This document shows positions 18,030-48,245 of a stretch of 49,176 nucleotides of DNA, in pieces. Both the position numbers and the translations under genes were made by a program. Location of the stretch: assembly GCA_020283715.1 (NCBI GenBank), contig JAIQCW010000242.1, forward strand, positions 1-49,176. The letters run 5' to 3'. Source of the DNA: Cytauxzoon felis (Eukaryota; Apicomplexa; Aconoidasida; Piroplasmida; Theileriidae). The notes below the pieces were generated by a model. It worked only from the letters and a program-made list of their open reading frames with translations, searched no databases and had not been told where the DNA came from. Every line of letters starts with the position of its first letter. Position 1 is the first letter of the stretch.

Positions 18030-19535
18030 TATTATCTGTGATCTACTTTGATCAAGTGAAGCAAATGATACCTACACCATCATTGAATCTGAATGAAATA
18101 GGTAAAAACCCAGCTGATGGTTCTCCCGCTACAGTTGATATACAAATTGAAATGATGGGTGATTATCAAAGCGGTAGTACTAATAATGTTACAGTCTCTA
18201 CAACTCCTGATAACCCCAAAAGTGGTTTCAAGAGACATACACATTATATTGGCGCGAATAGATTTACGGTAAATAGAATTAAAAAGGACGCAAGCAATAA
18301 TCTTGCGGGTGCTCTAGCTAATGAGATAACTAAAACTAATACAAGATTTGTTCACGTTTATCATGGAGGGACAACTGGTAATACACCCCTGTTAATAGCC
18401 GTATGTATAAACTCTGGTTCCTCTGAAACTTGGACATATTATAAGAAAACGAATCCTGCACAGGATAGTAATGATGATTGGTCTTTAGAAGCTACTCTTG
18501 CTAATAAGAATCCTGACGGTTCTGTTGATGACAAGAATCATATAATAGTTGAGTTAGATAAATTGAATGATTGGGCGAATAGTGAAACTGTAATTCATAT
18601 AGAGAAAACGGATACGAAAGGTGTAAATTCTAGTGGTCAATATACTACTGGTCCAAGTAATGGTACAAAACAATTACTGTTGCCAAGACGATTGGGAGTG
18701 GTTCTAATGGAGTACCTCAAGGATATGTGGCATATGAGCATAATCCTGATACCACTATTACCGCTACTACATTCAAATTTAATGGACAGAATGTAGGAGG
18801 ATTTGACGGAGTTACACCAAGTATTGATGATAGTAAACCATTTTATGTATATTACAAGGATGATGATGAAAAACATGAAAGGCCATTGCTTGCTTACTTT
18901 CAAACAACTGGTAGCAAACCTCATAAATATTATGGAAGAGGTACGAAATGGAGACAAGAATACAGTAATACTACTGCATTAAATGCCGCTCAACTTCAAC
19001 CTCATCTTGGTGAGATAAATAGAGGAGGAACTTTTGGTGAATTTAGACAAGTTGAATATTTTATTACACATATGATCTGCGACAGGTAATTATGGTGAAT
19101 TTGTAGACAAATTTGGAACTGATGTTAAGAAAGCTATAATTGAGGAACTCGATAAGGCTAAAAATAAGGCTACAAATGCTACTTGGAGTTCCACTGGTGA
19201 TTCTAAAAAGACCGGTGTTTTAAGTAAAATTAATGCTGCTATACGAGATGTCAAAGCAATAAATACGGGTGCACAATTTATTGATACTACTACTACAGGA
19301 TCTCCTGGAGAAACAGCTAGTGATGCTCTTACCGAAGCTCAAAGTGAGGCCAGTGAAATTACCCATACTCATCTTTCTGGTTCAATTACAGCACAACAGA
19401 TTAAGACTCCTATAACTGAAGCTATAGACAAATTTACTAATGCTATAGATGATGAAGTTGGTCAACATACAACTGCTGCATTTCTTCTCCTTCGCCACGA
19501 TCTCAGGGAGTGGTTCTACCCTTTAGAGATAGATA
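18030..19535 (+). pseudogene. FAINT-like membrane-protein relative, copy 2, frame-broken
   Basis: Starts FDQVKQMIPTP after a possible intron end near 18033. The first FAINT-like unit (FVHVYHGGTTGNTPLLIA) runs to 18660; alignment with the intact gene shows a one-base shortfall in the A-run near 18664-18669, after which a second unit continues in another frame (FYVYYKDDDEKHERPLLAYF, RGTKWRQEY). Near 19037-19085 the frame changes again, explicable by a 49-nt intron in phase, leading to the K/A-rich helical module (AIIEELDKAKNKATNATW to AIDDEVGQHTT) also found in copy 1. The frame then runs into the dispersed repeat and stops at 19538-19540. Copies 1 and 2 look like a tandem duplication with decay. 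Confidence 0.55.
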
Positions 19536-19910: not shown

Positions 19911-21597
19911 TTATAAATTTACTGGTAGGAAAATTTTCAATGCATATCTTAACCAACGTGAATGACCACATACGATAAAAATATCCTCAGTAAAATTATT
20001 AAAAATTCGATTAAAAAATGATAACATTTTCGTATAACATAAATTCCTAGGTTGTTTAATATCATCAACCATTTTCAATCTTTTATATTTTTCATATGAT
20101 TCGGGAGAAAATATCATCTCCAATAAAGGAAATGTAATCGAACCAAAACATGAATGTAATGATACACAATCCGGATTAACAACCAATTCCTATAATATTA
20201 TTATAATTTTAAAAACAACTCCACCTGAAGTCCAATCTACCTCTTCTCTACTCGATCCTCTCTTCGTCTTGCAGACAGCTTCCTCTATTTACTTCCCCTT
20301 CCAGCTCCCGTAGATCGCTTCCAGGTTCCACTTGAGGTTAAAAACCTTATCTCACTGAGATACGACTAAAGTGACGGAATCCATGTTTGTCAGGATATCT
20401 CAATGAAGACAATACAGAATGAAGTGAGGAATATAGTAATAGATACAATCATCAAAGTCCTCTTCAATGAAGTATTGACATCAGAAATTCATCTATTAGT
20501 TATTCCACAATCTTCAGTAGTTTCCCCAGAAATGAAGAAATTCCTTCAAAATTTTGGGGGTAAAAATGAAGTTAGTGAAATTAGTGATTGGACCTCAAGT
20601 GGAAGTGGAACCCGCAGCTGATCTCAGGGAAGCGAAGGGGGAAGTAAATAGAGAAGGCACCACGGCTAGTGGAAAGACCTCAAGTGGAAGAGCTGACGGC
20701 AGGACTATAACCTCGAGTGGAAGCTGTCTGCAAGACGACCTCAGGTGGAAGACGAATGAAGATAGTGATTGGACTTCGGATAGAGTGCTAATATATTATT
20801 TGTTATGGATACATACTTCTAATTCATGTGTGATGTATATATGTTCATTTGTTTTATTGAGTCTAGATCTGAGTATAAACATGAGCGTGCTTTGTGCTCT
20901 CCTGTATGATTATAATATTATAATTGATATATATATAAACCTTAAATATGATGCGAATAATACACTTTTTTTACCTGTACCTGTAATGGCAGCTACATCT
21001 AATTCTAAATCTGGATTATTTTTTGCTTCTGATAGAAATTGTGCTACATCTAATGATTGTGATATGCCATTAGTAGTTAATGGTGAATCGCATATAAAAC
21101 TTTCATTAGTAAATATGAATAAAATTTCAAATAATAATAACAATACAGATGATACAAATAATTTAAATACATTTTTAACATTATAAAATGATGCATTCCA
21201 TACAGATTGTCTAAAATAAATAATATTATAATGATGTAAGGATATTATTATATATTATTACAATATAAATCATATTATAATAGATTGATTTAATACTTCA
21301 TTCAACATACCCATGTCTTATAAAGTATATTGTTTTAACTTTAACAGGGATATAATCAGCATCTTTACATAAATGTGCTTGTCTATGAATAGCAGAATCA
21401 TATTCATTAGTATTAAATATTGTAGTAAGTCTACAAAGAGAAAAATAAGTCAATCGCAACTTATAATATAAATAAGAAAATTTAAGATGAGTCTTTTCAA
21501 TTATTAACTCATCTTTGTTTATATTAGTTGGGGTATTTAATATTATTGAACCAAATACTAATGTAAAACAAATAAAAGCTACTACGTACTTTGACAT
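19911..21597 (-). CDS. Secreted histidine-phosphatase / phosphoglycerate-mutase-like protein
   Basis: Minus-strand exons: 21311-21597, about 20975-21210, 20817-20896, 19911-20189; about 293 aa. The N-terminus MSKYVVAFICFTLVFGSIIL looks like a signal peptide. The catalytic motif RHGQSVWN is split across the first intron (IYFIRHG at the end of exon 1). Further family marks are DSPLTTNGISQS, AQSTLMFIL, HELEELVVNP and the late catalytic VCGHSRWLR. The fold transfers or removes phosphate through a phospho-His; with a signal peptide it is more likely a phosphatase-like protein of the secretory route than the glycolytic mutase. The donor of exon 2 could be 20975 or 20981. Intron 3 (20190-20816, 627 nt) contains module repeats and the best copy of the 245-nt core. 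Confidence 0.75.
20215..20790 (+). repeat. Dispersed module repeat around the best-preserved 245-nt core, PGAM-like intron 3
   Basis: Antisense modules 20217-20336, core about 20337-20592, sense modules to 20790. In this copy the core keeps an open frame starting at 20403 (MKTIQNEVRNIVIDTIIKV...) that runs on into module sequence; the other two copies have stops. Confidence 0.85.
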
Positions 21598-23780: not shown

Positions 23781-26045
23781 TCATGATATAATACCATCCG
23801 TTATAGTCGAACAATAACATGGACCATTTAATGTCATAAATTTAGAATCCTAATAACATTAATAAATAAATAACAATCAACATACCCTATAGTAACCAAT
23901 TCTATCTATACATTTAAAATCCTATAAATAATATATATAATAACAGAAACCATTAAATAACAAATATAGTGAAGATTAGGTCTAATCCACCTCTCCATTC
24001 CAACTGAGGTTACAACCTTCCCTTCCACTCGCCGTGGAGGCCTCTTCTATTTACTTCCCCTTCCAGCTCCCATAGATCGCTTCCAGGTCCCACCTGAGGT
24101 CCAGTACTATTCCTCATTCCATTACTACCTACACCTTCGCCACGATCTCTGGGAGTGGCTCTACTCTTTAGAGATAGGTAATTAGAAGAGCTGACGGCAG
24201 GATGAAGTGAGTTGGATTGGACGTCGAGTGGTGGTAACCTCAGGCGGAGTGGGGTTATTATGGGGTTAATTATTATTATAGTGTTTTTTATCCCCAGATG
24301 CCCTACTTGCCACATAATACTAAATTTACTTCAACTGTGCCACGATCTCTGGGAGTGGCTCTACTCTTTAGAGATAGGTAATTAGAAGAAGCCACCACGG
24401 CGAGTGGGAAGACAAGGTTGTAAAATCAGGTACAACGATATGAATATGAGTGTTTGATACTAACCTTTTGAACGAGTGTGAATGTTTCTTTACCTTTTTT
24501 TGAGGATAGTACATCATCTGGTTCACCATTGTATCCATCCCAATGTACTTTATCACCAGGATTTGATTGATCGGGTGGTACAAGTAATTCAACTTTTGTA
24601 TGGTCATTATTTGAAACACATAATACCATACCATTAGATTCTTCACCTCTTAATATTTTTTTACTTAAATTGGCCAATACACAGACCTTTTTATTCAAAA
24701 TTTCCTCAGGACCTAGAAATTCTACAAGACCAGAGCATATATTCCTAATCTCAGTACCGATATCTATCCTCAAACAATATAATCTATAGAAATCATATCA
24801 ATACAATATATAAACTCACTTATCAGCATCAGGATGCTTTCTTATCGATATAACCAACCCAATTACAACCTATAATTATCATATATAGAACGAAAAAGCA
24901 TGAAATGAGCTGTTGTATAATCCACCTGAGGTCCAATCCAACTCTCTTCCCACTCGGCGTGGAGCCTCTTCCAATTACATCCCCGTAAACGGTAAAGCCA
25001 CTCCCGGAGATCGTGGCGAAGATGAAGGTAGTAAGGATTGGACCTCAACTGGGGACCTCAATTTGGACCTGTAAGCGATCTACGGGAGCTGGAAGGGGAA
25101 GTAAATAGAGAAGGCGCCACGCCTAGTGGGAAGACCTCAGGTGGAACGAAATTTGTAATATTTATGGATTATTAACATACATTCAGCCTCGTAACATCAT
25201 CGTATGGTCTGACTTCGACGTTCTCCTTCTTTTCTTTCTTGGGTTTCTTTTCCTTTTCGACTGTAAATGTGTTATAAAATGGTGATCAAAACTTCAATAC
25301 CTTTGGGCTTTGCTTGAACCAATGGTTTATCCTATGGATGTTATAATTTTTATACGGATCTAACACACCTCTACAACAGTTAATACTTTATAACCCTCAA
25401 GAGAGTTTACGATTCCAGGCAAGTGTTGAATATGATCATACCACCTAACGAGATTAACGAACTCGGCCAGATCTTTCAATTTAGATGAAGACTAAGAGTT
25501 ATAATGGATGAAAGTATACAGTCTTACCATCCATTGATATAGCGATACAAACATGACCAAATCCGCAAGAGTAATTGATGGTCCCACGAAGAATGTCTCA
25601 TTGAGCAAATGATCATTCAACATCTGGAAAATAAGTTATATGGAATCATAATAAAGTCAACTTTACCTTCAATACATCAACTTCTGAGATACTATAGTCG
25701 TACTTTGACGCCAAATTAACAAATGAATCCATAGACCCCTTCAAAACATCATTTGATGGAACAAGTAATGATCCAGATTGATTACACCTCAGAATATACT
25801 CGAGAATCACAGGAAACTGTTTATAAGGAGCTGAGCCATCGTCTAATTTGAACGAGAGATCCTAAAGATTAGATGAAGATAAGGATTCCATTAGAATTCA
25901 AAGCAATAAAGAGAGAAATAAAGTTTAAACAAACCGTATGATTAGATGTAAGAGTTAATTTGACATTATTATTGCCAGTATAACCCAAAACAAGCCTTGA
26001 AATATCAGTCTTAGGGCTATTCGTACATATGATCAATTCCGGCAT
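23781..26045 (-). CDS. tRip-like tRNA-binding protein: GST-like N-terminus, EMAPII C-terminus
   Basis: Ten minus-strand exons: 25935-26045, 25667-25861, 25528-25623, 25369-25491, 25301-25331, 25181-25260, 24820-24869, 24465-24783, 23886-23921, 23781-23849; 369 aa, all phases consistent. Residues 1-175 are GST-like (FFVGPSITLADLVMFVSLYQW), followed by a Lys-rich linker (KEKKPKKEKKE) and an EMAPII/tRNA-binding OB domain (VGLVISIRKHPDAD, IRNICSGLVEFLGPEEILNK, KVCVLANL). The domain's ending (MTLNGPCYC) is recovered only across intron 23922-24464. The order matches Plasmodium tRip, which binds tRNA and assembles aminoacyl-tRNA synthetases; an AIMP1/Arc1 relative is the alternative name. Two introns (24870-25180, 23922-24464) are expanded by the dispersed repeat; the others are 36-73 nt. 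Confidence 0.85.
23985..24425 (+). repeat. Dispersed module repeats in tRip-gene intron 9
   Basis: Two clusters, 23985-24250 and 24335-24425, each with the SSNYLSL..DRG module (palindrome CTCTTTAGAG twice), the [13 protein letters not shown] variant and CCACTCGCCGTGG. Read on the minus strand most of this is open (24010-24315) although it is intronic. Confidence 0.85.
24920..25147 (+). repeat. Dispersed module repeat in tRip-gene intron 7
   Basis: Opens with CCACCTGAGGTCCA, then the YIPVNG form with palindrome CCGTAAACGG, the [12 protein letters not shown] variant and CCACGCCTAGTGG, closing ACCTCAGGTGG. Confidence 0.85.
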
Positions 26046-26227
26046 TTCAAGCGATAAAATTACAACAGATTAATTATATAAATAATATTTTAATTATTTT
26101 ACAATAAATTTATTTTTAACTATTTTAAAAGGGTATTATCCTCATCATCGATATGATGCCAACATAGACAATGTAGTCTTCAACATGAAGATAGAACCTT
26201 ATCTTCCAAAGGCATGAAGCTTATACA

Positions 26228-26480
26228 CCTGAGGTCCAATACACCCCTCCTTCCACTAGGCGTACCACCTGAGGTCCTGCCGTCAGCTCTTCTTATTATC
26301 TATCTCTAAAGAGTATAGCCACTCCCGGAGATCGTGACTGAAGTTAATTATTGGACCTCAGGTGGAGACTTCGAGTGGAACCCGTAGCTGATCTCAGGGA
26401 AGCGAAGGGGGAAGTAAATAGAAGAGCCTCCACAGCTAGTGGTAGAAGAGGTAGCTGTACCTCAAATGGAGCGCCTAGTT
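26228..26480 (+). repeat. Dispersed module repeat, intergenic
   Basis: Contains ACCTGAGGT palindromes, CTGCCGTCAG, an SSNYLSL..DRG-type module with CTCTAAAGAG, ADLREAKGEVNRR coding module and a diverged CCACAGCTAGTGG. Confidence 0.85.
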
Positions 26481-27391: not shown

Positions 27392-29782
27392 ATGTCTGAC
27401 TCTGACTCTGGTAATAATCAAAATACCTATGCTAATGGTAATGATGCTATGGAATCTAATTATGATGAAGTTGTTGACTCATTTGATGCATTAAAGCTTA
27501 ATGAAGATTTACTTAGAGGTATCTATTCTTATGGTTTCGAACGGCCCTCTGCTATTCAGCAACGAGGCATCAAACCCATTATTGAAAATTACGATACCAT
27601 CGGACAAGCACAATCTGGTACTGGAAAAACCGCTACCTTTAGTATCGCCGCACTACAAATCATCAATTATGATCTCATGTCATGCCAAATACTCATACTC
27701 GCACCAACCCGTGAGCTTGCGCAACAAATACAAAAGGTATGTTGAAGCCACAAGTTTGATGGAAGAAAGTGATTAAATGGAGGATGACATATGAATTCTT
27801 TGTTGTATATGTTGAGGTTTACTGAAGTTTGATGAGGTTTGATATTTTATTGACCTAGTGAACCTTATACATCACCTCCTCATAATTATAATACTTCACA
27901 TAATATCTCATCATTCAGGTTGTATTGGCCCTGGGTGATTATTTAAAGGTGCAATGTCATGCATGTGTTGGTGGAACTGTGGTAAGAGATGATGTACATA
28001 AATTAAAGGCAGGTGTACACATGGTCGTAGGTACACCTGGACGCGTATATGATATGATTGATAAAAAGGCACTTTTAACAGATAAAATGAAATTATTCAT
28101 ACTAGATGAAGCCGATGAAATGCTCTCTAGAGGATTCAAAGGACAAATCCATGAAGGTTTGTTTACATGCACTAAGGAATATAGTAACTCCACACGAAGT
28201 ACAATCCTTATCTTCCACTCGGTGTGGAGCCTCTTCTCCGCCCGAGGTTGTCTTGCAGACAGCTCTTCTATTTAGTTCCCCTTTCAGCTCCCATAGATCG
28301 CTTCCAGGTATTTCACCTCCACTTGAGGTCCAATCAATACCATCTGACTGCCACGATCTCCGGGAGTGGCTCTACTCTTTAGAGATAGGTAATTAGAAGA
28401 GCTTACGGCAGGACTGACCTCATATTGAAATGTATATATTTTAATTATTCAATTATTATATTAATATATATAGTATTCAAGAGATTGCCTCCTGATATTC
28501 AGGTAGCGTTGTTTAGTGCTACGATGCCTAATGAGATATTGGAGTTGACTACAAAGTTTATGAGATCTCCAAAGCGTATATTGGTGAAGAAGGATGAGTT
28601 GACATTGGAGGGTATAAAGCAATTTTATGTATTGATTGATAAGGAGTTTAAGTTTGATACATTATGTGATTTATATGAATCAGTAACGATAACGCAGGCG
28701 ATAATATATTGTAATACTAGAAGGAAGGTGGATACTCTTACAACAAAGATGCAGGAGAAAGATTTTACTGTATCAAGTATGCATGGTGATATGGGACAGA
28801 AAGAACGTGATTTAATTATGAGAGAATTTAGATCTGGTTCTACACGTGTACTTATTACTACAGATTTATTAGCACGTGGTATTGATGTACAACAAGTTTC
28901 ATTAGTTATTAATTATGATTTACCTATGTCACCTGATAATTATATTCATCGTATCGGACGATCCGGAAGATTTGGACGCAAAGGCGTTGCTATCAATTTC
29001 GTCACACCACTCGATATGGACACCATGAAAAATATCGAAAATTACTACAATACACAAATCGAAGAAATGCCCGCCGATGTAAGTTTTCAAAATTTAACCC
29101 AAATCCACTCGAGGTCCAATCGCTACCTTCACCTCTTCCACTCGCCGTTCCACCTGAGGTCCAATCACTATCTTCATCATCTCTTTCCCACTCGCCGTTG
29201 TGGCCTCTTCTATTAACTTCCCCTTCCAGCTCCCGTAGATCGCTTCCAGGTTCCATTTGAGGTTTCCACTTGAGGTCCAATCACTGTTTTCCACTACTTC
29301 ATTTTACCACCAAAATTTGAAGAAAATCCTGAATATCTGGGGAAACTACTGAAGATTACTCAATGACTACTCGATGGAATTTTAATCTCAATACTTCATT
29401 CAAAAGGAATTTGATGATTGTATTTAATTTCCTGAAATCCATTAGATTCTCAGTTATATTCATTGAGATATCCTCACAAACATGAATTTCGTCACTTTAT
29501 CCTTATCTCCTCGAGATTAGTTTTATAACCTCAAGTGGATTACCCGAGAACGATCTACGGGAGTTTGAGGGGGAAGTAAATAGAGAAGCTGTCTGCAAGA
29601 CGACCTCAAGTGGAGAGGCTCCATGCAATGGGAAAGAGATGCTGAAGAATAGGATTGACCTAATTTACAATGTTTGTATAAACTTCTGTGGATGATACTT
29701 GTTAATTAGATTTTTTTTATGTTTATTATTGTGATTTATATATTTACTCATGATATAATTATAGATTGCGGAGTACATGTAG
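27392..29782 (+). CDS. EIF4A: Translation initiation factor eIF4A (DEAD-box RNA helicase)
   Basis: Four exons: 27392-27736, 27919-28156, 28474-29078, 29765-29782; 401 aa, the usual eIF4A length. It unwinds mRNA 5' leaders as part of eIF4F in the cytosol. Helicase motifs in order: Q motif ([12 protein letters not shown]), [44 protein letters not shown] and [13 protein letters not shown]. The last exon is only six codons including the stop (IAEYM), restoring the family ending EMPADIAEYM after intron 29079-29764. Introns 2 (28157-28473) and 3 (686 nt) are filled by the dispersed repeat; intron 1 (182 nt) is not. Without the last splice the protein would run into repeat sequence. Confidence 0.95.
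28188..28420 (+). repeat. Dispersed module repeat in eIF4A intron 2
   Basis: Antisense modules in order: [35 protein letters not shown] variant, ACTTGAGGTCCA, and the DRG module with palindrome CTCTTTAGAG near 28375-28384. Confidence 0.85.
29100..29648 (-). repeat. Dispersed module repeat flanking an inverted 245-nt core, eIF4A intron 3
   Basis: Antisense modules 29100-29286, inverted core about 29287-29528, modules to 29648. Includes the variant CCATGCAATGG at 29631-29641, where both arms have changed relative to CCAC...GTGG. Confidence 0.85.
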
Positions 29783-35191: not shown

Positions 35192-38100
35192 TTAGTTATC
35201 AAAGTTGATATTATTATCATTATGATGATCATTATCGTATTGTGGGTTATTGATGGGTGCAGTGATGGAGATATTATCATTAATAATATTATCCCAATTA
35301 GGTAATGTTTCATCATCTGATTCATGAGTACGTTTACTTCTACTTTGTAATAAATCATTATCATAATTAATTAATTGTTGTATTTTATTATTAACCCATT
35401 GATTTCTAATATTATCATCTTTACAAACTTTACAATATTGTGATAATAATGTTATTAATTTTGATTTAAATTCAAAATATACACGATTATTTTCATGTAT
35501 AAATTCTTGTTTATTAACAGATGGTATTAACCAATCTGGTACACTTATTATAGCTGTTAATGCAAATCTATATAATTCACCATCAAATAATGATTCCTTT
35601 GGTATATTATTCGAATTATTTATCTCCGATATCGATGCAGGAAAATGACACTCCAATCGTGATATCAAACGACCCTTAAAATATAATAATATCCCCGCCT
35701 CACAATATCGTACATCCTCATCTACTGTCTTTTCCTCTACCTTATCATCATCCACTACAGTTGATGTATTTCCACTCGCCATTCCACCTGAGGTCGTCTT
35801 GCAGACAGCTTCTCTATTTACTTCCCCCTTCGCTTCCCAGAGATCAGCTGCGGGTAGTCCACTTGAGGTCTCCACTTGAGGTCCAGTACTACCTTCAGTC
35901 TTTACATTTATCAAATGACCTTCTTCATAGCCACGATCTCCGGGAGTGGCATTACCCTTTAGGGATAGGTAATTGGAAGAGCTGTCTGCAGGACGAAGAG
36001 AGGTGGATTGGACCTCAAGTTGAGAGTTAGTATTATCATCATATGATTGAATATGTGTATTATTTGATTGTGGTAGAGGATTGAGGAATCCGATGAGTGC
36101 GAAGCATCCGTTAGAGTGATCAGATGGTTCGAATAAGAATGGCAATTCAACAGAATTATATAAACGTTTTTTAAGATAAAAATATAAACTGCCATTATTA
36201 ATTGAACGACTAATGGGGGTAACACCACAATAATTACAACCTACACGACTACAAGAATAATTTGTAACATTATCAACATCATCATTAGATTTAAATGGTA
36301 CAAGCTCAAAATTCTGTACAATCAATGTACAAGAACTATATAAATTCAACCAATACAAATATACAGGTAAACAATAATCCATAGAATATCTACCACACCT
36401 CCATAATGGAAAATCCATACGCCAATTATACAATGATTTCGGTTTCATCATTGCCACACCAACAGAAGGTACATCTGTTGTATTTTCATCTACCTTCTCC
36501 ATAACCTTATCATCATCTTGAAGCTTAACCTGTAGTCCATCTTTTCCATTGGATGGAGCTTCTCCACTAGAGGTATTCCCACTAGGCGTGGTGCCTTCTC
36601 TATTTAGTTGTCCCTCCGCTTCCCTGAGATCAGCTGCGGGTTCCACCTGAGGTCCTCCACTTGAGGTTACATCCTTATTACCGCCATCATCGCCACGATC
36701 TCCGGGAGTGGCATTACCGTTTACGGGGAGGTAATTAGAAGAGCTGTCTGCAGGACGAAGGGAGGTGGATTGGACCTCAAGTGGAACAGATGTTGCAACT
36801 ACGGTTGGAGTATTGTCTGGAAGACCTAGTGTAGATGTATTGAAAGTGGATGATTGTGGGTCATTATTGAATGAATTTCCATCAATATCCATGGTCTTTT
36901 CCACAACTTGAGATAGAGTATTGTTATTAGCTTCAACACCTGAGGTTACAACCACATCTGTTGCACTCGGCGTGGCGCCTTCTTTATTTAGCTGTCCCTC
37001 CGCTTCCCTGAGATCAGCTGCGGGTAGTCCACTTGAGGTCTCCACCTGAGGTCCAGTGCTACTCTTCATTCCACTTGAGGTTTCATCCAACACATTCTTA
37101 GCACCATCTTCCATCATTCCCATGATGGATGATCCATCACTACCTTCACCGCCACGATCTCCGGGAGTGGCATTACCGTTTACGGGGAGGTAATTGGAAG
37201 AGCTGACGGCAGGATGGACCTCAGGTGGAGAGCTGTCTGTAGGACGAAGAGAGTTGGATTGGACCTCGTGTGGAACAGATGTTGAATCATTATCCAGTAT
37301 ATTATCATTTGATGTAAATGTAATGGTATTATCATGTTCATCACTATGTCGTTCATCATTTCTCTCTTCGCTACGCTCAGTACACTCATCACTACGTTCA
37401 GTTCTTTCCTCGCTGTGTCGTTCTTCGCTACGTTCCTCACGACTCCGTTCATCTCGATCATCATTGTAGCATCTGAGTAGTAGTGTATCATCTTCTTTAG
37501 AATAGTAAATTTCATCTAAATCAGTTCTCAATTGCCAAAAGAGTATTCTGGTACCTGGATTAGTACCGAGTACATTGATTTGATCTGCTAAGAGTGCTGC
37601 GCTATTGAATGGGCTATAGCTCATTAATAATCTTTGATGATGTCTTTGATCTACCATACATGTACCATCACGATTGATTAATTCTTTACTTGGTAATTTC
37701 CACATACACATAGGTGCTGCCATTTCTCTAGATTCACATTGTCCCATTAATTCTAATGAGAGCATACCGATACCGATAGAATCATGTGTTCTAGACATAA
37801 CAGCACAACTGGATGCTAATCTAGCATATGCCATTTTAAAACCACAACCATATTCATAATTAGGACTACGTTCACCAGTTTTAGATTGTCCAAATAATTT
37901 TAATAATTTATTCATAGCAGTAACATCAAGTCCATTACCATCATCTTGTATTGAAAGCATACCTTCATCACCTTGTGGTGATAAATTCCATGTAATAATA
38001 ATTTTACTACTAGATACAGATTCTTTAAGTGAATTAGATACTAAATGTGCAATAGCACCAAATGCCCATCTTTGTTCACTACATAATGCCCATAATATAT

Positions 38101-39871
38101 CAGGTGAATGTGATTCTCTATAATACCAAGGTGGATATAATCTAACATCACGTATATTACAACGTGTTTGTATAGAATCAATAGGTGATAATATAGAATT
38201 TTTTAAAAATAAATCTTCACCAGTTAAACTTAATACCCATGCATCACTTAATATTTGTTTTCTATGAAAACCACCATGAAAAAATATACATGGTACAGAT
38301 GGTTTTGTACCAGGAAATAATATATTTCTCTTCTCAAAAAAACATGCTACATGTAATTGTCTAGGTTCAAATGGTTCACCAATATAATTCCTAGGATAAT
38401 TTGGTCTTAAACTATACCATCTACGTTGTGAAAAAAAATAAAAATATAATTTATCTGATGCAATTACATTTTTTTTTGCACCAGAACTATATGTTAAACC
38501 ACCTGTTAATAACATTAATCTTTCTATTGTCTTTGGTACACCTGTATTTATCTCTTTACAACGTTGTGCTATAAATATTGAACTATAATGTGATCTAGGA
38601 CCTATATTACCCTCATATTGTATATTAGACCATGTACCTGATATAGGATTATTTAAATGAAACATCCATAAATCATCTAATAAACAACGTTCACTACGAT
38701 CAACAAAACCATTTGAAGATGATGTCTCACCACCAAATATACATATTGTATCATCATCTGCCCATAATGCACATACACCAAAACGTACACATGGCTTATT
38801 ATCATCACATTCTACTAAATACCATGTCGTATTTATTATATTATACGCCCATAAATCATTTAAACATTGAAATTGATTACGTAAACCTGTCTTACCACCA
38901 AATATAAATAAATAATTTGCACCTGTTGTCTTTTGTATCGATTCACAACGTGCTGGATATACTAATGCTGAATGCTCATCACGTGGTGCTGGTGCTCTAC
39001 CTGTGGCATGTTTACGCATCCATTTACGCTTCTCTAAATCTAATACATAAACATCATTAAAAAATCTTTCACCATTAAAACCACCAAATATTATTATAGC
39101 ATGAGATTGCTGTATAATCGCAACATTACATGAATTTCCTTCACGATGTGATGGTATCTCACCACTAAATATAATCTGCTTAGAACTAAAATCTACCAAA
39201 TTTACTACATGAGCTTTTGCTAAATTTAAACCACGACTCCTACCATTACTACCACCCATCAAATATGCACGACTACCAATACATATCAATGAATGACCAT
39301 ATAATGGACCAGCAGTTAAGGATCTACGTATAGGTAACCAACATGCCTTCTGTAATAATACACCAGCTGATGTTGTACGACCACTAGTATTACTCTTCTC
39401 ATCAATCGATTTCTTTACATTCAAATTACGCCGTATTGAACGTAATATATCATCCTTTGAACTATTACTATAACCAGATGATGATACCAATCCCTTCGAT
39501 TCAGATGATGACATACCATTCTTATAACTCCTAGATAAACTAAATGCTGATTCTATTTTCATTAAACCATTCTGATCTGGTAATGGAGCACGATCAGGAT
39601 CACTCTCCAATTGCTTTATTACAGCATGTAAACGATCATGACCTACAACTGCACCTATATATGAATACACCTTTGAATGCTCAAATTTATTCGCCAAAAA
39701 CTCCGTTACAATGTCCCTTATACACTGACGCTGCGATGGTGTAGTTATACTATCATTTGCCAACACCTCCAATAAATTAAACAATGTGGGACGGGAATTC
39801 GTACCACGACCACTCGATGATGATGGCTCCTCCAATGATTGCACATTCATCTCCGACATCTCAATTACCAA
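35192..39871 (-). CDS. Kelch-MORC GHKL-ATPase-like protein with repeat-derived insertions
   Basis: Single exon, 1,559 codons. Kelch repeats occupy about residues 175-570 (IIIFGGFNGERFFNDVYVLDL, FIFGGKTG, ICIFGGETSS). The GHKL ATPase begins near 600. Its N-box, normally AxAELxDNAxDA, reads FGAIAHLVSNSLKES: the catalytic Glu is His and the following Asp is Ser, with Asn kept. DDGNGLD, LFGQSKTGE and GCGFKMAYARL are present. An Arg/Glu/Ser tract (about 805-845) precedes a region to about residue 1390 with three in-frame blocks of the dispersed repeat (PAADLREAEGQLNREG, SSNYLPVNGNATPGDRG). Apicomplexan MORC is a chromatin silencer working with HDAC3 and AP2 factors in the nucleus. Start: first ATG of the frame, though the internal MSEMN start is also good. 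Confidence 0.88.
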   Translation of the reverse strand: MVIEMSEMNVQSLEEPSSSSGRGTNSRPTLFNLLEVLANDSITTPSQRQCIRDIVTEFLANKFEHSKVYSYIGAVVGHDRLHAVIKQLESDPDRAPLPDQNGLMKIESAFSLSRSYKNGMSSSESKGLVSSSGYSNSSKDDILRSIRRNLNVKKSIDEKSNTSGRTTSAGVLLQKACWLPIRRSLTAGPLYGHSLICIGSRAYLMGGSNGRSRGLNLAKAHVVNLVDFSSKQIIFSGEIPSHREGNSCNVAIIQQSHAIIIFGGFNGERFFNDVYVLDLEKRKWMRKHATGRAPAPRDEHSALVYPARCESIQKTTGANYLFIFGGKTGLRNQFQCLNDLWAYNIINTTWYLVECDDNKPCVRFGVCALWADDDTICIFGGETSSSNGFVDRSERCLLDDLWMFHLNNPISGTWSNIQYEGNIGPRSHYSSIFIAQRCKEINTGVPKTIERLMLLTGGLTYSSGAKKNVIASDKLYFYFFSQRRWYSLRPNYPRNYIGEPFEPRQLHVACFFEKRNILFPGTKPSVPCIFFHGGFHRKQILSDAWVLSLTGEDLFLKNSILSPIDSIQTRCNIRDVRLYPPWYYRESHSPDILWALCSEQRWAFGAIAHLVSNSLKESVSSSKIIITWNLSPQGDEGMLSIQDDGNGLDVTAMNKLLKLFGQSKTGERSPNYEYGCGFKMAYARLASSCAVMSRTHDSIGIGMLSLELMGQCESREMAAPMCMWKLPSKELINRDGTCMVDQRHHQRLLMSYSPFNSAALLADQINVLGTNPGTRILFWQLRTDLDEIYYSKEDDTLLLRCYNDDRDERSREERSEERHSEERTERSDECTERSEERNDERHSDEHDNTITFTSNDNILDNDSTSVPHEVQSNSLRPTDSSPPEVHPAVSSSNYLPVNGNATPGDRGGEGSDGSSIMGMMEDGAKNVLDETSSGMKSSTGPQVETSSGLPAADLREAEGQLNKEGATPSATDVVVTSGVEANNNTLSQVVEKTMDIDGNSFNNDPQSSTFNTSTLGLPDNTPTVVATSVPLEVQSTSLRPADSSSNYLPVNGNATPGDRGDDGGNKDVTSSGGPQVEPAADLREAEGQLNREGTTPSGNTSSGEAPSNGKDGLQVKLQDDDKVMEKVDENTTDVPSVGVAMMKPKSLYNWRMDFPLWRCGRYSMDYCLPVYLYWLNLYSSCTLIVQNFELVPFKSNDDVDNVTNYSCSRVGCNYCGVTPISRSINNGSLYFYLKKRLYNSVELPFLFEPSDHSNGCFALIGFLNPLPQSNNTHIQSYDDNTNSQLEVQSTSLRPADSSSNYLSLKGNATPGDRGYEEGHLINVKTEGSTGPQVETSSGLPAADLWEAKGEVNREAVCKTTSGGMASGNTSTVVDDDKVEEKTVDEDVRYCEAGILLYFKGRLISRLECHFPASISEINNSNNIPKESLFDGELYRFALTAIISVPDWLIPSVNKQEFIHENNRVYFEFKSKLITLLSQYCKVCKDDNIRNQWVNNKIQQLINYDNDLLQSRSKRTHESDDETLPNWDNIINDNISITAPINNPQYDNDHHNDNNINFDN
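35775..36032 (-). repeat. Dispersed module repeat, exonic, MORC block 3
   Basis: Coded as PAADLWEAKGEVNREA and [17 protein letters not shown]. The palindrome is CCCTTTAGGG at 35955-35964. Residues about 1280-1366. Confidence 0.9.
36546..36790 (-). repeat. Dispersed module repeat, exonic, MORC block 2
   Basis: Coded as PAADLREAEGQLNREG and SSNYLPVNGNATPGDRG. Palindromes CCATTGGATGG (36546-36556) and CCGTTTACGG (36717-36726). Confidence 0.9.
36945..37265 (-). repeat. Dispersed module repeat, exonic, MORC block 1
   Basis: Coded as PAADLREAEGQLNKEG, SSIMGMMEDGAKNVLDE and SSNYLPVNGNATPGDRG. The 37097-37140 part is shared with FAM135 intron 4 (5112-5154). Confidence 0.9.
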
Positions 39872-41306
39872 CTCCGATCATTATAATCTATAGACGTTTT
39901 ATGAAGAGACTAAGTGTATAACGAAGTTGAAGTGTGTTGAGGACGTGTGATGATAATGGAATGATATATGTATTGAAGAGGGAGTAAAGTGATAATGTGA
40001 TATCTGTATTGAAAATGAAATGTCCGTATACCTCAGTTTCTCACTTCCTTCCTTCTTCCCTCCCTCACCTCATTCAATGACACTGTAATATCTTCCCACT
40101 TCCTTCAACAATAAGTCTGAATATCTTCCTTCCTTCAATTAAATGGGTATCGTATGATTAAAGTATTCATTACTCTAGGTTAGTAGGGAGATTAATAAAT
40201 CGTCAATCAAAAAAAGTATGGTGATAAGTATATAAATGGATAATAAAAAAAGAGATGAACAATATACAATAATGCATCTACTCGAGTCAAATTGGATCAG
40301 ATGTGTATTAATGCAGTACATGCAGAATGAAATGTCTACAACAACATCAATAACCCAGTATAAAGAGACAAGAAACACATTACGAAGGAAAGTAGAGTAA
40401 TGAATAGATTTAATACTGATATAATAGTATACAATTTTTTGAAGGATAGATTTAGAAAGATATCGAGAAATGGAGTAAACAACTTACTTTTATAATCAAA
40501 AAAATATAAATTTTACAATCATATTAAGATTTAAACGCCTTCCTACAGCCACACATTCGATTATAACTACAAATTATATAGTACATTATAATCTATACAT
40601 AATTCATTAGCGTTATCAACTGATAATCATTCAACGTTGCACAGACACAAACCCCACGTCTATTCCTTTATCAAATCAGCACCATTGCACTACCAAAGCA
40701 CAGGTACCTCTCTACATATATAATTTCATCATAATTCCTATATGTCTAATGATAATATTAGATCATTTTCATATCTTTATATATCATCTATACCAAATTC
40801 CTAATTTATACATTACATCTATTACACATTATAACCATTCTCTACTATAGAAGACAATATTTCCTACCATTATTCTATACATCTTATTCCATTTTTAATT
40901 CACATTTTTTATTTTATCTCATCTGTTTATACTCTACTTCCATCTTTGTATTCTTGGAAGGCATTACTTATATGGTCGGGTCATATATTATATCACATAT
41001 ACACTAACTTATTCCAACTATATTAATATATAGTGTTCAATCTCTGTCATAATACATATAAACATTGGGTGCTTGTTATAGGATAAAGCCAAAACTACTA
41101 CTATCCTACACATGTAAGATCCGAGATCACTGAACCACAATTATTTATATTTAATATAATCATATTATAATTTTACATTAATATAAATACAGTTGCTACA
41201 TAATGCTCTAAGTTCAACACATCTAAGTGGATCTCGAACCAAAATATCAATCTGTCTACAAGACTTGTATGAAGATACTCTGCTGAGATCATCCTATAAA
41301 ACTCGA
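39872..41306. other. 1.4 kb gene-free region
   Basis: Upstream of MORC (minus) and downstream of RPC4 (minus). AT-rich, with a CT-rich stretch at 40030-40140 in front of MORC that may belong to its promoter. A less AT-rich segment at 40628-40712 could be a small RNA gene, but I could not match it to any known class. No dispersed-repeat modules. Confidence 0.45.
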
Positions 41307-42074
41307 TCAATTACCATTGATATCATCAGGAAGGTCAGGATATACAACGAAACGATGATGATAATCCCCTAGGAATAGAAATTCATCATTCTCATCCAGT
41401 AGACAAGCGACCTGTTGTTTACATGTAGATCTATTGCCAGGTGAGAAGCTAAAGATGTGTCCATCGAGATCCAATTTGATCTTGCCACTCTTGAATACTT
41501 TCAACTTTCCCATTCTACCAGATGGTAAGCAATCTAACTTCGATGATTGATATATACTCTCATCCGCCCCTAAAGAGTAGATTTAAACAGGTGAAAGTGA
41601 ATAGAGGAGATGAGGCTATGGATGGAAGCCTAATTAGAATTGATCTCATCTTCATATTATAAATGTATACAATACAAAAGACATACCTTGTCGTTTTAGT
41701 GCGGGTAGAACGCTGGGCATTTGTATGTGTAACAAATGTGTACCTCTAAATAAAAATTTGATGGATTATAAAAGATACCTACACTTTATTGAATATATTC
41801 GTATCATTTTCCTTGACCTAAAGTTATATATAACCTTTAAATAACCTCAACTTACATCACTATTAGCAATAGGTAGTATATGCGGTAACAAGGCATTAGG
41901 ATTAGATTCAGCTAATTTATCAAGCACATCACCACTACAGATATCTACTGCATCTTGATATGTATAATAATTATCACTATTTTGCGATGATTTATGTTCC
42001 AACTTTACATTATAGTATTGGGAACCTTCGTCTGATGCAGCCGACGAGGAATCCTCTGCAAACAAATCAAACAT
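41307..42074 (-). CDS. RNA polymerase III subunit RPC4 (POLR3D/Rpc53 family)
   Basis: Four minus-strand exons: 41856-42074, 41783-41817, 41687-41745, 41307-41569; 191 aa, shorter than yeast or human RPC4 because the N-terminal region is reduced. The family's conserved end is complete: LLHIQMPSVLPALKR (RPC4 'lqlPs.LP' block), then GRMGKLKVFKSGKIKLDLDG, FSFSPGNRSTCKQQVACL and a VVYPDLPDDI close. RPC4 pairs with RPC5 in Pol III initiation and termination in the nucleus. The small second exon is set by phase: it joins NIFNKV to GTHLLHIQ. Introns are 37-117 nt with no repeat. An alternative frame through exon 3 is open but lacks the RPC4 motif. Confidence 0.85.
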
Positions 42075-42154
42075 TTAATGATACATAAATATTTAAATTA
42101 AAATTAAAATCTTTTTTTAAAATTTGTATAAAATTTCCCGTTAAAAATCCAATA

Positions 42155-45100
42155 TCATTCTCCCTCAGCACCATCATCGTTCATTGGACGCTTCCTCATA
42201 TCATATGACCCGGGGATTATCGATATGGATTTTGTAACATCAAACGTCTTATATATCCCAACCATTTGATTACATAGCTCAAACATTTGATTACGTAGCG
42301 ATATGATTATAAATTGCGCATCTTTTGTGCGGTCTTTAATATTCTGTGCTATTATAGAAACATTACGGAAGTCTAATGCCGCATCAATCTCGTCCATAAA
42401 ATATACCGGATTCGGCTTATAATGATGCAAAGCAAATACCAAAGCCAATGATGATAACGTCTTCTCACCACCTAATGTTTTTATAAAGAGACATATGGTA
42501 CATTAGACATTCTACCCGAGTTCCATCCTGCCGTCAGCTCTTCCTTTTAGTTCCCCCTCCGCTTCCCTGAGATCAGCTACGGGTTCCACTCGAGGTCCAG
42601 TACTAACTCCACTTTCCATTCCACTAGCCGTGGAGGCCTCTCTATTTACCTCACCTCGACTCCCATGGATCGTCTCGGATTCTTCGCCACGATCTCCGGG
42701 AGTGGCTCTACCCCTCGGGGATAGGTAAATAGAAGAGCCTCCACGGCGAGTGGAAAGTGTGGAATTGGATCTCAGACGGAAATTGAAGAGAAGATACAGT
42801 GTCTCAGTGAAGTGATTCTCTCTCCATCTGATTCATTCATGACATACCTGATAGATTATAAATTTGTTTCCAGCTCTTATTTACGGGCCTTACTGAGAAT
42901 AAGATACCTTCCGTAAATGGCTCCATTGAGTCTACTAATTCCAACTCTGCATCGCCTCCCAACGTTATCGTCTATAGATCATATATGAAGAGTATGTGTT
43001 GATTCTTTACTAACCTGATACATTTCTTTGAGTTTATTGGCGATGATTGAGAAATTGAAGAGGAATTCTGATTTCCTATTAAAGCATAATTGTTCGTGTA
43101 TGGCTTTAGCTTCATCTCTTTTGGATTGTAGATTAAGTAGTTCTTGTTTTTTGTTAATAAAATCTGAGACTTTAACCCTATAATCTTCGATAACACCCAA
43201 GTTGGGTACATTCCCCATTTCTTTTTTAAGTTCTTCAATTTTTTTAATTAATAATTTCAAATTTACTTTTTTCAATTCATCCTCATTTATATTCAGTTCA
43301 TCATCGAGATCATCATGTTCTTGTACAGTTACAACATCACCTTCCTCAATCCCCAGAACCTCCCCATCATCCCCATCAATAATATCAACAATATGGGGTT
43401 CATTTGTATGATTGAAATTATAAGTTGATAATGTATTGATACAATCTTTACTAATATTGTATAGATTTAGAGTATTTTTATATAGGTTTTTAATACTTTG
43501 GATATTTTTTTGATGTTCAGCGATCTTATGTTCAAGTAATGTTAAATGTTTTTTTAATTCATCAATATTATGTTTAACATCAACAGTTTTCAATTCATTT
43601 TCTTGTATTAATTTATTATTACTACTTAAAGTTAGATTCAATTCATTATGCAACTTCTTCAATTCTTCATGTTTATTATTGACTTCAATCAATTCTTTAT
43701 TTACATTCGCAGCATCATCTTCTAATTTATCTAATTCTTGTTCCAATTTTTTCTCTCTATTCTTATGATCTGCAATATCCTTTTCAAATTTATTTACATC
43801 TCTAGAACATTTTTCAGCATCACCAAGTAAATTAGCCGCTTCTTTCCTATATTTCTCAACATCTTTACGTATTTTAACTAATTTATCATCTAATTCAGAT
43901 ACTTTATCTTTCCATATCTTCAATTTTCCATTGCCAACATTCGCTAATGATTTAGATGCCTCTTCAACTATTAATTCTTGTTCTTTAATCTTACTCTTTA
44001 TACTTTCACATTCCTTCCTCTTGTTATTCAATTGTAATTTAACCTGCTTCAATTCATTATCTTCATCTAATGATTTAATTTCCTCCATCACTTTAATTAT
44101 TTCAGTTTCTACATTACTCAATTGAAGCTTATCATTGCTTATAATCTGATTACAAGTCTCCAACTCGTATTTCAAATTATCCCTCTTCTTAGATAGCTTA
44201 TCCTCATTCTCATGCATCGTTTCCAAATCATTCTTCAACTTATCCAATTCGCTACATTTCATCTCCAACTCCTCATTCATTTTTGAAAGTACCCCATAAT
44301 CTATAGATTTATCGGGTTTTTTATCCCTATATTTTTGTAAATTTACCCCACCACCACATAATCTACCATCAGGTTCAATAATTTCACCATCTAATGTAAC
44401 AACACGTTTCCTAGTACCATAACCGAATTCGGTAGCTCGATCTAATGTAGATGTGACCATAGTATCACGTAAAGCATGAAAGAAGCATATTTTATATTTA
44501 GGATCATTTAATTTAATAAGATCGATTAATCGTTCAATACCATTAGGAATGTTTGAAGAAGAAAGTACTTTATCCATTTGTTTCTTAAGATCTTTATTGA
44601 GTACTGATAATGCGATAGCAGATATGCGCCCCAAATTTTGCTTCCTTAATTCATCGAATATTTGTGATGCAATATCGGGTGTATCAACAACTATTGTTTC
44701 TAAGGATGAACCACATGCTGCTATAAATGCTTTCTCATATCGTTGATCTATAGTACATAAATCATATAGTCTACCATGTACACCTGTAAATTTTCCCGGG
44801 ACCATTGACATTATATAATTATATTGATCATTACCACATGACAATTCATCATATTCGATCTTCTTAGATTCATATTCATCTTTGAATCTCATATATTCCT
44901 CAGATTTTAATTTCACTAAACCTTCGAGCTCTGTGATGGCATTAACATCAAAGGTCCCGATACTTTCCAACTCTTGTTCCATCTTCTTATAACTCCTTTG
45001 ATTTTTCTCAATGGATAATTTTAATGTCTTCTCATTAGTTTTCAGTTCATCTAATTTACTCATCAACTCCTTCTTGCTGGATTCCATCAATACTAAAGAC

Positions 45101-46599
45101 GTCTCAAGTGTCTTAATTTCTTTAGAACATTCATCATGTAATTGTTGTATAGGGGCCAATTTCTGTTCACATTCATTTAAATATCGTGATGCTTTATCCA
45201 TCTCAGGCTTAAATTTATCTGTCATTTGCTCAAGCTCTAACTCAGCTTTATCCAATTCATCCTGTACTATAGGAAGTGATTTAATTAACTCTTCAACAAT
45301 TTCTAACTTGTCCTTTGAACCTTTTTCATATTGTGGCTTCTTGGTCTGTAATTTCTTTATCAATTGTGTCTTCTCTTCAACCTTCTTAACCTCCCTGAAT
45401 AATTGTGCCCTTAAATCCTCATCCTTATTACACATCTTCTGGAATGAATCAGATAATACCTTCTGTCTACTTGTAGTACTAATTAATTCTTCTTCTATAC
45501 CTTTAATCTTTATAGAAATTTCTTCCTTATCCTTCAACACATGAGAAATTTCCTCTTCATATTCTTCAAGTCTCTTTGTCAACCCTTCTAAATTAACATT
45601 ACCTTCATCCAGTTCAATTTTAGAATCATAAAGCTCTTTATTTACTAATAAAAACGACATTTTATGTAGAGCCTTCTCCTTATTTATATATTCATCAGCC
45701 TCATCCTTAGCCTGTTGTAAATCCTCAATATCCTTCTGAGATACCAAAGCACGATTACTCTGCTGTTGTACTTGATCCTGTAGTTCCTCATATCTAGCAC
45801 AAGCCTCCTTAATCTCAGGTATATATTGATTAGTACCAATAATATCCTCAATATATTCCAATAAACCCTCCTCATCAGGCTTTGTACCCTTTGGCTTCAT
45901 CTGCGATATCTGCTCAACCTCACCTTGTAATATCAAAAAACGATTGTTATATAAATCCATACCATAACTTTTCAATGCATTACTAACCTGTTTCTGGGTA
46001 GATACAACACCATTGATACGATATTTAGATGTATTATCATGAGATACCTCCCTAGATATAATCAATTGTGATCCCTCAATAATCTCATAATCATCAACAC
46101 AAGGATCCCTATCCAATATTTCACAGAAATGTATGGCCACTTCCATAGAATCTAATGGACGACCCTTATTCTTTTCAATATAAAATGATGAATTATGTAT
46201 CAAATCAGATAATCTATCAAACCTCATCTGTTTAGCACGAAAACCAAATACAAATAACATAGCGTCAATAACATTACTTTTACCTGAACCATTAGGACCA
46301 ACAATAGATGTAAATCTCTTGTGAAATGGACCTATAGTTCTAACACCACCATAACTTTTAAAATTACGCAAGACTACCTTCTCTATAATCAAACGACGTA
46401 TAGGCTCATTCATATTCCTTATTTCAGAACCAATGGTACGAACATGCTCCTGATATTTCTTAGATTTAACTGAATTCATCTGAGATGGAGTAGACATAAT
46501 ATCATCATCGATAGCCTCTATATCGATTACAGGTTCTTGTCTATCTGGAACCGTAGTATGTCTAGGGGTTTCCGCTGTAATAGATTTCTTCCTAGCCAT
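42155..46599 (-). CDS. SMC4: Condensin subunit SMC4
   Basis: Three minus-strand exons: 43015-46599, 42848-42971, 42155-42471; 1,341 aa. The start at 46599 (MARKKSITAETP) is preferred over an upstream in-frame ATG at 46626. Walker A GPNGSGKSNVIDAMLFVFG near residue 100 and the SMC4-type ILQGEVEQISQMKPKG are followed by coiled coil, hinge (about 600-760: VHGRLYDLC, YEKAFIAACG, ETIVVDT) and the return coiled coil. The C-terminal head comes from exons 2-3: TLGGDAELELVDS, signature LSGGEKTLSSLALVFALHH and Walker B PVYFMDEIDAALD. Condensin compacts chromosomes at mitosis. The intron 42472-42847 (376 nt), which cuts the signature motif between LS and GGEKT, is loaded with the dispersed repeat. Confidence 0.95.
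42513..42778 (+). repeat. Dispersed module repeat in SMC4 intron 2
   Basis: Includes CTGCCGTCAG, reverse of VADLREAEGELK, CCACTAGCCGTGG and the DRG module whose palindrome is the GC-only form CCCCTCGGGG (42711-42720), then CCTCCACGGCGAGTGG. Confidence 0.88.
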
Positions 46600-47269
46600 T
46601 GTTATGAGTGATATAATAAAAATCAAAGTAAAATATCAAATCATACTCAATATACAGTTACGAATCTATAAGTGTATGGGCATGAACATAAGACAGTTTA
46701 CACATCGTCAAAAATATGCCCATGTGTAAGGTATCAAATAAAAATTATAGATTTATAAATTCTATAAATTAAATACACACTAAATTAAACATTTGAAAAC
46801 AATTCATTTATTCTAATTATATAAGAAGGAGACATTTTTAATTGACACCCGAATATGAGATGAGGTTATCGTGGTTTATAAATTACGAAAACATTACGTA
46901 ATTAAGGCGAGTTAAGGGATTTATGTACTTACTAATTTAAATATTATAAAAATTGTTCGATAAAACATTCATTCTTATGTCTAATAATATTTGTAGGACT
47001 TTACATGCATTCCTGTTACCCCTAGGCTCCAAGGTCCACGTGATCATAGGTCTATAATAACCTGCGCTATGTATTACTTATACTACTATATATATAAATC
47101 CAATGTCATTAATAAACACATTTATCACATAATTATATTTGCGATTGGCCCCCTGTGATTCCGATGTTGAACTCCAGTATATAAATAAATTGGTATCTAT
47201 AATACCAATTTAATTTAAAAATATTTTGACGATGTATTAGTTTGTGTATTTAATATATCTATATTTAAG
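46600..47269. other. Intergenic region between divergent genes
   Basis: 670 nt upstream of SMC4 (minus) and of the small membrane gene (plus), so probably both promoters. AT-rich except 47000-47065, which includes the palindromes CACGTG and TGATCA and reads as no protein. No repeat modules. Confidence 0.45.
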
Positions 47270-47726: not shown

Positions 47727-48245
47727 AGAATAATGATAACATATAATATTTTAAACAAAACAAATTATATATTTATTAATAGTCTTGTAACCATATCTTG
47801 TCAAGCATTATATACCAAAGAAGATAACACGGGAGCGATTCATTATTCATGAAAAATTATAGAAATATACTTTAAAATTTACTCTAAATTCATTTATATA
47901 TAGAGTTCATAATAGGTATTACACCTGAGGTCCAATCCTACTATCGTTCCACTCGCCGATGCACTTGAAGTCCATCTTTTCCATTGCATGGAGCTCCTCT
48001 ATTTACTTCCCCCTCCAGCTCCCGTAGATCGCTTCCAGGTTCCACTTGAGGTCTCCACCTGAGGTTAAATCCTTACTACCTCTACCTTCGCCACGATCTC
48101 TGGGAGTGGCATTACCGTTTACGGGGAGGTAATTGGAAGAGCTGACGGCAGGATGGACCTCTGGTAGAACCCATACTGAGTTGAGATGACAAATATGTCA
48201 TGTGACCAATGCTTATTGTTACATCTTGTTGTTATGTTCAAGTAT
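47727..48245. other. Intergenic region between convergent gene ends
   Basis: About 520 nt between the stops of two convergent genes. The first 200 nt are plain AT-rich sequence; the rest is mostly the repeat cluster listed separately. Confidence 0.5.
47925..48176 (+). repeat. Dispersed module repeat, intergenic
   Basis: Contains CCATTGCATGG (47981-47991), reverse of [20 protein letters not shown] and ACCTGAGGT palindromes, and a DRG module with CCGTTTACGG, closing with GCTGACGGCAGG. Confidence 0.85.

Follow-up and report, generated by a model that had tools for sequence, protein, structure and literature searches.

Why should both arms of a short palindrome change from copy to copy and still pair? 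The question is raised by a repeated module of the 49,176-base contig JAIQCW010000242.1 (this whole stretch is the window below), in which a ten-base core takes several forms. A sequence-only reading of the window had listed four complementary cores and one exception, and had taken the paired change for a classic sign of a maintained stem in DNA or RNA, or of a palindromic protein site. The module, here called A, belongs with a related module, B, to an inverted unit of about 280 bases. In our reading, to which we give a probability of roughly 0.6, this unit is an invasive element resembling REPINs and Rickettsia palindromic elements, and the ten-base core is one of its several small stems.

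The DNA read comprised 294,266 of the 8,623,106 bases of the genome (8.62 Mb, 181 contigs): the window and 245,090 bases from elsewhere, namely C4 1-120000, C8 1-70000, C9 1-10000 and match-centred pieces of C1-C3. The four complementary cores lie exactly where the sequence-only reading had placed them. The exception exists and has its broken pair, two bases to the right of the position first given (19517-19526):

5205 to 5214, forward strand: core CTCTTTAGAG, in the A module starting at 5180
19519 to 19528, forward strand: exception core CCCTTTAGAG, one broken pair
35955 to 35964, forward strand: core CCCTTTAGGG, A module within the reading frame of a MORC homologue
36717 to 36726, forward strand: core CCGTTTACGG, A module within the same MORC reading frame
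42711 to 42720, forward strand: core CCCCTCGGGG, A module within an intron of SMC4

Pairing in the core and around the B loop

The 20-base start of the A module (at most three mismatches) occurs 14 times in the window, nine of these copies being additional to those listed earlier, and 0 times in 100 shuffles. The 14 cores are CTCTTTAGAG (6), CCGTTTACGG (5) and one each of CCCTTTAGGG, CCCCTCGGGG and CCCTTTAGAG. All four pairs are intact in 13 of them and in 106 of the 117 copies in the DNA read, as against a mean of 56 and a maximum of 70 when the 3' arms were redealt (2000 shuffles). Complementarity of the core is kept between copies, as had been claimed, and is far beyond chance. The fully paired cores comprise CTCTTTAGAG (73), CCGTTTACGG (21), CCCTTCAGGG (6), CCCTTTAGGG (3) and, once each, CCCCTCGGGG, CCCATTTGGG and CTCTATAGAG; ten of the imperfect ones have one broken pair and one has T-G at the fourth position. 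In the whole genome the pattern GGGAGTGGNNNNACYSTTYASRG, which permits only C/T and C/G at its variable places and to which pairs broken by other letters are invisible, retrieved 2472 matches. Three complementary types account for 2443 of these (CTC/GAG 1746, CCG/CGG 389, CCC/GGG 308), leaving a remainder of 29.

The covariation signal in the core is weaker than the sequence-only reading had claimed. It greatly exceeds simple shuffles that ignore the tree. However, where a covariation test had been expected to yield significant pairs, a null that keeps the branches of a tree of 105 distinct copies, with 150 alignments simulated, gave one of four, pair 2-9 (E 0.007); pairs 3-8 (E 1.3) and 4-7 (E 17) are not significant. 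Pair 1-10 hardly varies, and paired changes on a single branch were reconstructed for pair 4-7 only, twice. The outcome that had been named as telling against a maintained stem, variants confined to a few lineages with no repeated paired change, was found in half: the core forms three main lineages. Alignments A2 (B-type rows) and A3 contain distinct copies only, from the window, C4, C8 and C9; A3 leaves out one of 77 A references (L036:4627-4673, with a one-base deletion in the core). Three units that are 85-88% alike over 221-233 bases bear different cores, CCCCTCGGGG, CCCTTCAGGG and CCGTTTAGGG, the last with a one-base deletion. Since close copies with similar backbones can bear different cores, whole-core replacement by conversion or template switch is possible, and a single step of this kind changes both arms together without two mutations. 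The core thus seems to be exchanged or altered as a whole, with few independent paired changes.

The case for a maintained stem is stronger outside the ten-base core, in the stem around the 11-base loop GATCTNNGGGA of the B module and in the terminal hairpins. The three pairs flanking GATCTNNGGGA are complementary in 276 of 292 exact copies, collected with no pairing filter; redealing the arms left a mean of 93 fully paired. Nine complementary arm sets occur, seven of them in at least two copies: CAC/GTG (113), GCT/AGC (108), AGC/GCT (36), AAC/GTT (9), GAT/ATC (4), AGT/ACT (2), GAC/GTC (2), TCC/GGA (1) and GCC/GGC (1, a weak match). A weak B-like match at 30389, off-frame of the open reading frame there, is kept among the 292 loops and in A2, which also keeps a chance-like row (L038:3124-3152, loop GATCAATGGGA). 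A2 required a paired inner stem, and its 52 distinct rows, so pre-selected, contain 68 doubly changed cells, as against 23.6 after shuffling and 1-10 in slid controls. Under the tree-aware null the middle inner pair reaches E 0.007. Between the two stems of the hairpin is a 3x3 loop, with G opposite A (-6/+6) in 166 of 179 copies and A opposite G (-4/+4) in 152 of 179, and the outer stem, mostly CCC/GGG or CCT/AGG, is paired in 164-173 of 179. A typical copy is the following:

6601 to 6629, forward strand: B hairpin CCC-GTA-GCT-GATCTCAGGGA-AGC-GGA-GGG

The terminal hairpins likewise occur as paired variants, GTCTGCAAGAC (51), CCATGCAATGG (14) and CTCTGCAAGAG (9).

Minimum-energy folding as RNA holds the inner stem in 40 of 62 distinct B hairpins in the sense orientation and in 19 of 62 in the antisense, with mean energies of -7.2 and -4.8 kcal/mol, respectively; DNA folding parameters recover it in 17 of 62. 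In three examples the predicted RNA fold contains both stems and a UNNG tetraloop closed by C-G. The complete structure with tetraloop is predicted for 19 of the 62 hairpins, or 31 if the outer stem is disregarded, and the consensus fold of the alignment matches in the inner stem and the tetraloop. Folding as DNA rather than as RNA was set aside on this difference, which is no more than suggestive. No gathering-level match to Rfam was obtained within the window.

Anatomy and gene contexts of the unit

About 2,800 A modules were detected genome-wide (1432 forward and 1403 reverse matches; backward-pattern control, 0). Module A reads GCCAC-GATCTCNGGGA-GTGGC, ten-base core, GTAATTRGAAGAG and terminal hairpin; module B reads CCC-GNA-nnn-GATCTNNGGGA-nnn-NGA-GGG, GTAAATAGAAGAG and terminal hairpin. 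The unit is an inverted pair of such modules around a variable centre, with a TCCAC(C/T)TGAGGT-like box at each end, and the end boxes together with the inverted modules constitute terminal inverted repeats. The DNA read contains 322 exact copies of the box ACCTCRRGTGGA (backward control, 0). Modules form 155 clusters, of which a tolerant box search defined both ends in 107; these have a median length of 282 bases and sum to 36,395 bases, 12% of the DNA read. Neighbouring modules less than 450 bases apart are divergent, that is, back to back, in 123 of 148 cases. Among 98 A/B pairs, 73 are spaced 41-79 bases from loop to loop, and 21 of 25 B/B pairs are spaced 261-318 bases around a conserved centre of about 220 bases. 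Three aligned unit pairs are 87-89% alike over 229-245 bases, with sharp ends and unrelated flanks. Terminal hairpins of the same type were found in 33 of 114 pairs, with 33.3 expected, and the modules are therefore shuffled. Non-random spacing of the units was considered and rejected, the coefficient of variation of the gaps (0.63-0.78) being about what a 450-base minimum gap yields. Units of the window include:

4986 to 5309: A/B unit, in the order box, terminal hairpin, rcB, centre, A, terminal hairpin, box
6213 to 6721: B/B unit with the conserved centre of about 220 bases; sister copies at 20220-20749 and 29104-29614
24921 to 25145: A/B unit, box at each end
26224 to 26470: A/B unit, box at each end
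47920 to 48168: A/B unit, box at each end

The conserved B/B centre itself occupies 6342-6562, 20345-20565 and 29302-29520 (reverse), and 21 such B/B units were read. A further palindrome, GATGGATCATCCATC, lies in the centre of one unit subfamily (37093-37161, 5108-5176), and a short repeated word, (CTA/TCAA)CCCGGAAGAAC with variants, occurs in runs inside several unit centres in C8 at about 29-48 kb (L045-L047).

Three genes of the window carry units, one in its reading frame and two in introns:

28237 to 28424: A/B unit in an eIF4A intron (about 28157-28473, splice sites placed from homology)
35192 to 39871, reverse strand: MORC/CRC230 homologue (Kelch and GHKL ATPase), 1559 residues, three in-frame units
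35756 to 36023: A/B unit in frame in MORC
36563 to 37274: two A/B units in frame in MORC
42173 to 46626, reverse strand: SMC4 gene, split by a unit-bearing intron
42511 to 42754: three-module array in the SMC4 intron (GTATGT...ACATTAG, about 42472-42847, splice sites placed from homology)

Over the best-aligned half, the MORC/CRC230 homologue shares 81% identity with that of Theileria equi. Its units occupy two loops, and the aligned orthologues of T. equi, Babesia gibsoni, B. divergens and a fourth piroplasm (P0124) have no inserts there. An acidic RSEER-rich stretch and the three units add about 300 residues to this corepressor homologue over T. equi (1559 versus 1250). The eIF4A intron falls, by its putative splice sites, between ...FKGQIHE and VFKRL..., and the eIF4A frame extends beyond the usual C-terminus into unit-like sequence at about 29085-29216.

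In the DNA read, 26 of the 98 A/B pairs have both modules in a single open frame of 200 codons or more. The spacing is a multiple of three in all 26, because the shared frame forces it; the remaining 72 pairs leave remainders of 0, 1 and 2 in 31, 15 and 26 cases. Most copies are outside such frames (87 of 117 A, 144 of 186 B), and in long frames A is nearly always read in its second reverse frame and B in its first forward frame. The 26 pairs fall in 19 frames. A Pfam domain was present in three of ten frames scanned, with several in MORC, so that some long frames may not be genes, and in-frame status outside MORC rests on open frames rather than on transcripts. One frame that contains a unit is WD-repeat-like by appearance and has no Pfam match.

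Core type is associated with frame: among 117 A modules, 9 of 76 CTC/GAG cores lie in long frames, as against 21 of 41 cores of the other types (p 1e-5). In B copies, CTAAAT instead of GTAAAT is commoner in long frames, with C at that place in 15 of 42 copies versus 13 of 144 elsewhere (p 9e-5, the best of 130 tests). Splice-like words may be avoided in exons, or separate exon-borne lineages may exist. Selection at the peptide level was rejected: among B copies of the GCT/AGC type, we found no excess of synonymous changes in long frames (26 of 91 changed codons, 32 copies) relative to elsewhere (47 of 183, 80 copies).

Competing accounts of the unit

If the unit is an invasive element, the whole inverted doublet would be what multiplies, much as in REPINs and Rickettsia palindromic elements. 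The intermediate would probably be a single strand of RNA or DNA that has to fold into the hairpins. Complementarity would then persist because only foldable copies are copied on, conversion would swap whole cores between copies, and copies that landed in exons would persist only if open and in frame. We advance more tentatively the wider proposal that a self-spreading doublet fills about one-eighth of the sampled DNA, moves through a folded single-stranded intermediate with machinery unlike known transposases, has rewritten many proteins in frame and, among eukaryotes, is the first counterpart to REPINs and Rickettsia palindromic elements.

A number of results weigh against the invasive element. 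Under the tree-preserving null, two of the three B inner pairs are marginal (E 0.13 and 0.82) and the pairs of the B outer stem not significant (E 3.3, 58 and 862). Single hairpins are not unusually stable as RNA (z -0.17 to -1.78, five tested), and the greater divergence of singlets than of doublets that is expected of REPINs does not reach significance, singlet and paired A modules carrying 1.42 and 1.13 differences (19 and 98 copies; p 0.11). The orientation of the unit relative to the gene is opposite in the SMC4 and eIF4A introns, and therefore no single transcribed strand is favoured. Target-site duplication was not seen at 107 units (2-mers 8 versus 7.7 shuffled, 4-mers 0 versus 0.2), whose ends come from the tolerant box search and may in some cases be misplaced, nor was any empty site seen at the DNA level. 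The Y1 transposase profile (PF01797) had 0 matches in the genome (control matched in 5 of 14 genomes), and a MULE transposase was not found either (control matched in 3 of 14), in searches that did not extend to hAT, mariner, piggyBac and others; the Helitron search matched no control genome and is uninformative. The only reverse-transcriptase match (RVT_1, C56:73693-74436) lies within a 1010-codon frame, which could be telomerase or a LINE-like element. Because a transposase and an empty site are missing, we term the unit REPIN-like or Rickettsia-palindrome-like rather than a member of either family.

The covariation could also be passive. Template switching within a quasi-palindrome, or gene conversion of whole cores, would produce matching arms, and selection on folding would be unnecessary. 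The core types are indeed few and differ between units with similar backbones, and most core pairs have weak support under the tree-aware null. However, copying from arm to arm would also pair the GNA/NGA loop, in which the G-A and A-G mismatches counted above are retained, and loop GATCTNNGGGA is conserved yet asymmetric; we regard this account as unlikely. A functional RNA element under selection, for example a transcript hairpin bound by a protein and spread through gene regulation, would explain the conserved loop, the predicted UNNG tetraloop, the G.A mismatches, and stems that covary and whose folding is better on one of the strands. Nevertheless, A and B are oppositely oriented, so that a transcript presents each in one sense only, the orientation to the gene is inconstant in the two introns examined, MORC bears three units, and B copies of the GCT/AGC type in long frames have no extra synonymous bias. 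Such an element seems to us quite improbable.

A double-stranded palindromic DNA site bound by a protein has in its favour that the core is a near-perfect dyad and that the fourth pair changed in two copies (T-A to C-G and T-A to A-T) despite the strained two-base hairpin loop that it would close. Against it, three different dyads occur genome-wide and the neighbouring conserved parts have no dyad symmetry, and we give this account very little weight. Already disfavoured is a protein-coding repeat, in which the arms would covary through the encoded peptide (...NYLSLKGNATPGDRG..., PAADLREAEGEVNREG). Copies in long frames do keep one frame each, as described above, but most copies are outside such frames, two arrays are intronic and codon-level constraint was not seen. 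A search of 5.8 billion proteins with the MORC insert, moreover, gave no match at E up to 1 in its 7999 best candidates, and we can lend the peptide explanation hardly any credence. Kinship with 5S rRNA, which a likeness of short words had suggested, was also rejected, since the 5S family search, in which 47 of 80 candidates were scored, returned a single genomic locus and no match at the units.

Known palindromic elements and the host genome

The invasive-element reading can be set beside four known systems; here and below, statements on published work refer to the available portions of the papers. REPINs and REP-BIMEs of bacteria, in which compensatory changes are reported on both sides of the hairpin (PMC3116915), are likewise inverted doublets of short palindromic modules with a variable spacer and many copies. 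In contrast, the present unit is eukaryotic, is about 280 bases long with several hairpins per half, and no Y1 (RAYT-type) transposase was found. REPINs are also extragenic, whereas the unit occurs inside open frames as well (26 of 98 A/B pairs; MORC). Rickettsia palindromic elements (PMC10969869) share with it the selfish-looking palindrome, the in-frame position in unrelated protein genes and the recurring peptide. They differ in that the unit is eukaryotic, has thousands rather than tens of copies, is also intronic and has an inverted two-module anatomy; the likeness seen is one of anatomy.

Miniature inverted-repeat transposable elements resemble the unit in being short, mostly non-coding and dispersed, with inverted ends, but at the unit no target-site duplication was seen (107 units) and no partner transposase was found in the searches made. 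The introner elements of Amoebophrya (PMC7789003) are inverted-repeat elements spreading through the genes of an alveolate parasite. An introner that carries its own splice sites was rejected for the unit, as the intron ends in both genes examined, SMC4 and eIF4A, are ordinary and lie outside the unit by the sites placed from homology, and other copies are in open frames.

Mobile DNA of the kind that the unit resembles is thought to be absent from these parasites. A survey of 64 apicomplexan genomes (PMC9141347) reported no class II elements, deemed the phylum not invaded by DNA transposons, dismissed apicomplexan MITE candidates as likely false positives and, as far as its available text goes, found no elements of any kind in Cytauxzoon felis and three Theileria species. 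Such a unit is not mentioned in the available parts of a paper on Theileria non-coding DNA (PMC2612703) or of the T. equi genome paper (PMC3505731), and no paper recognized as describing it came up in searches of an open-access library. Scans with the exact A motif gave no match in viral contigs and one match in prokaryotes (84,980 species, one genome each), in a Gemmatimonadetes contig. The transposon-free picture of Apicomplexa would change with a theileriid-like genome that carries about 2,800 palindromic units, some of them inside proteins such as MORC. Such a genome would also make it possible to ask in a eukaryote how palindromes spread when no transposase is recognizable, how proteins tolerate repeated insertion, and what share of the covariation is due to selection and what to conversion.

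The proteins of the window are of piroplasmid apicomplexan type, and the closest relatives of SMC4 are those of T. equi (51%) and B. gibsoni (50%). In a tree of 16 SMC4 sequences, for which the tool flagged long branches and uneven composition, the window sequence groups with Theileria (100/99), outside T. equi, T. annulata and T. orientalis (96/94). By these protein comparisons, the host genome is putatively that of a theileriid-like piroplasmid apicomplexan.

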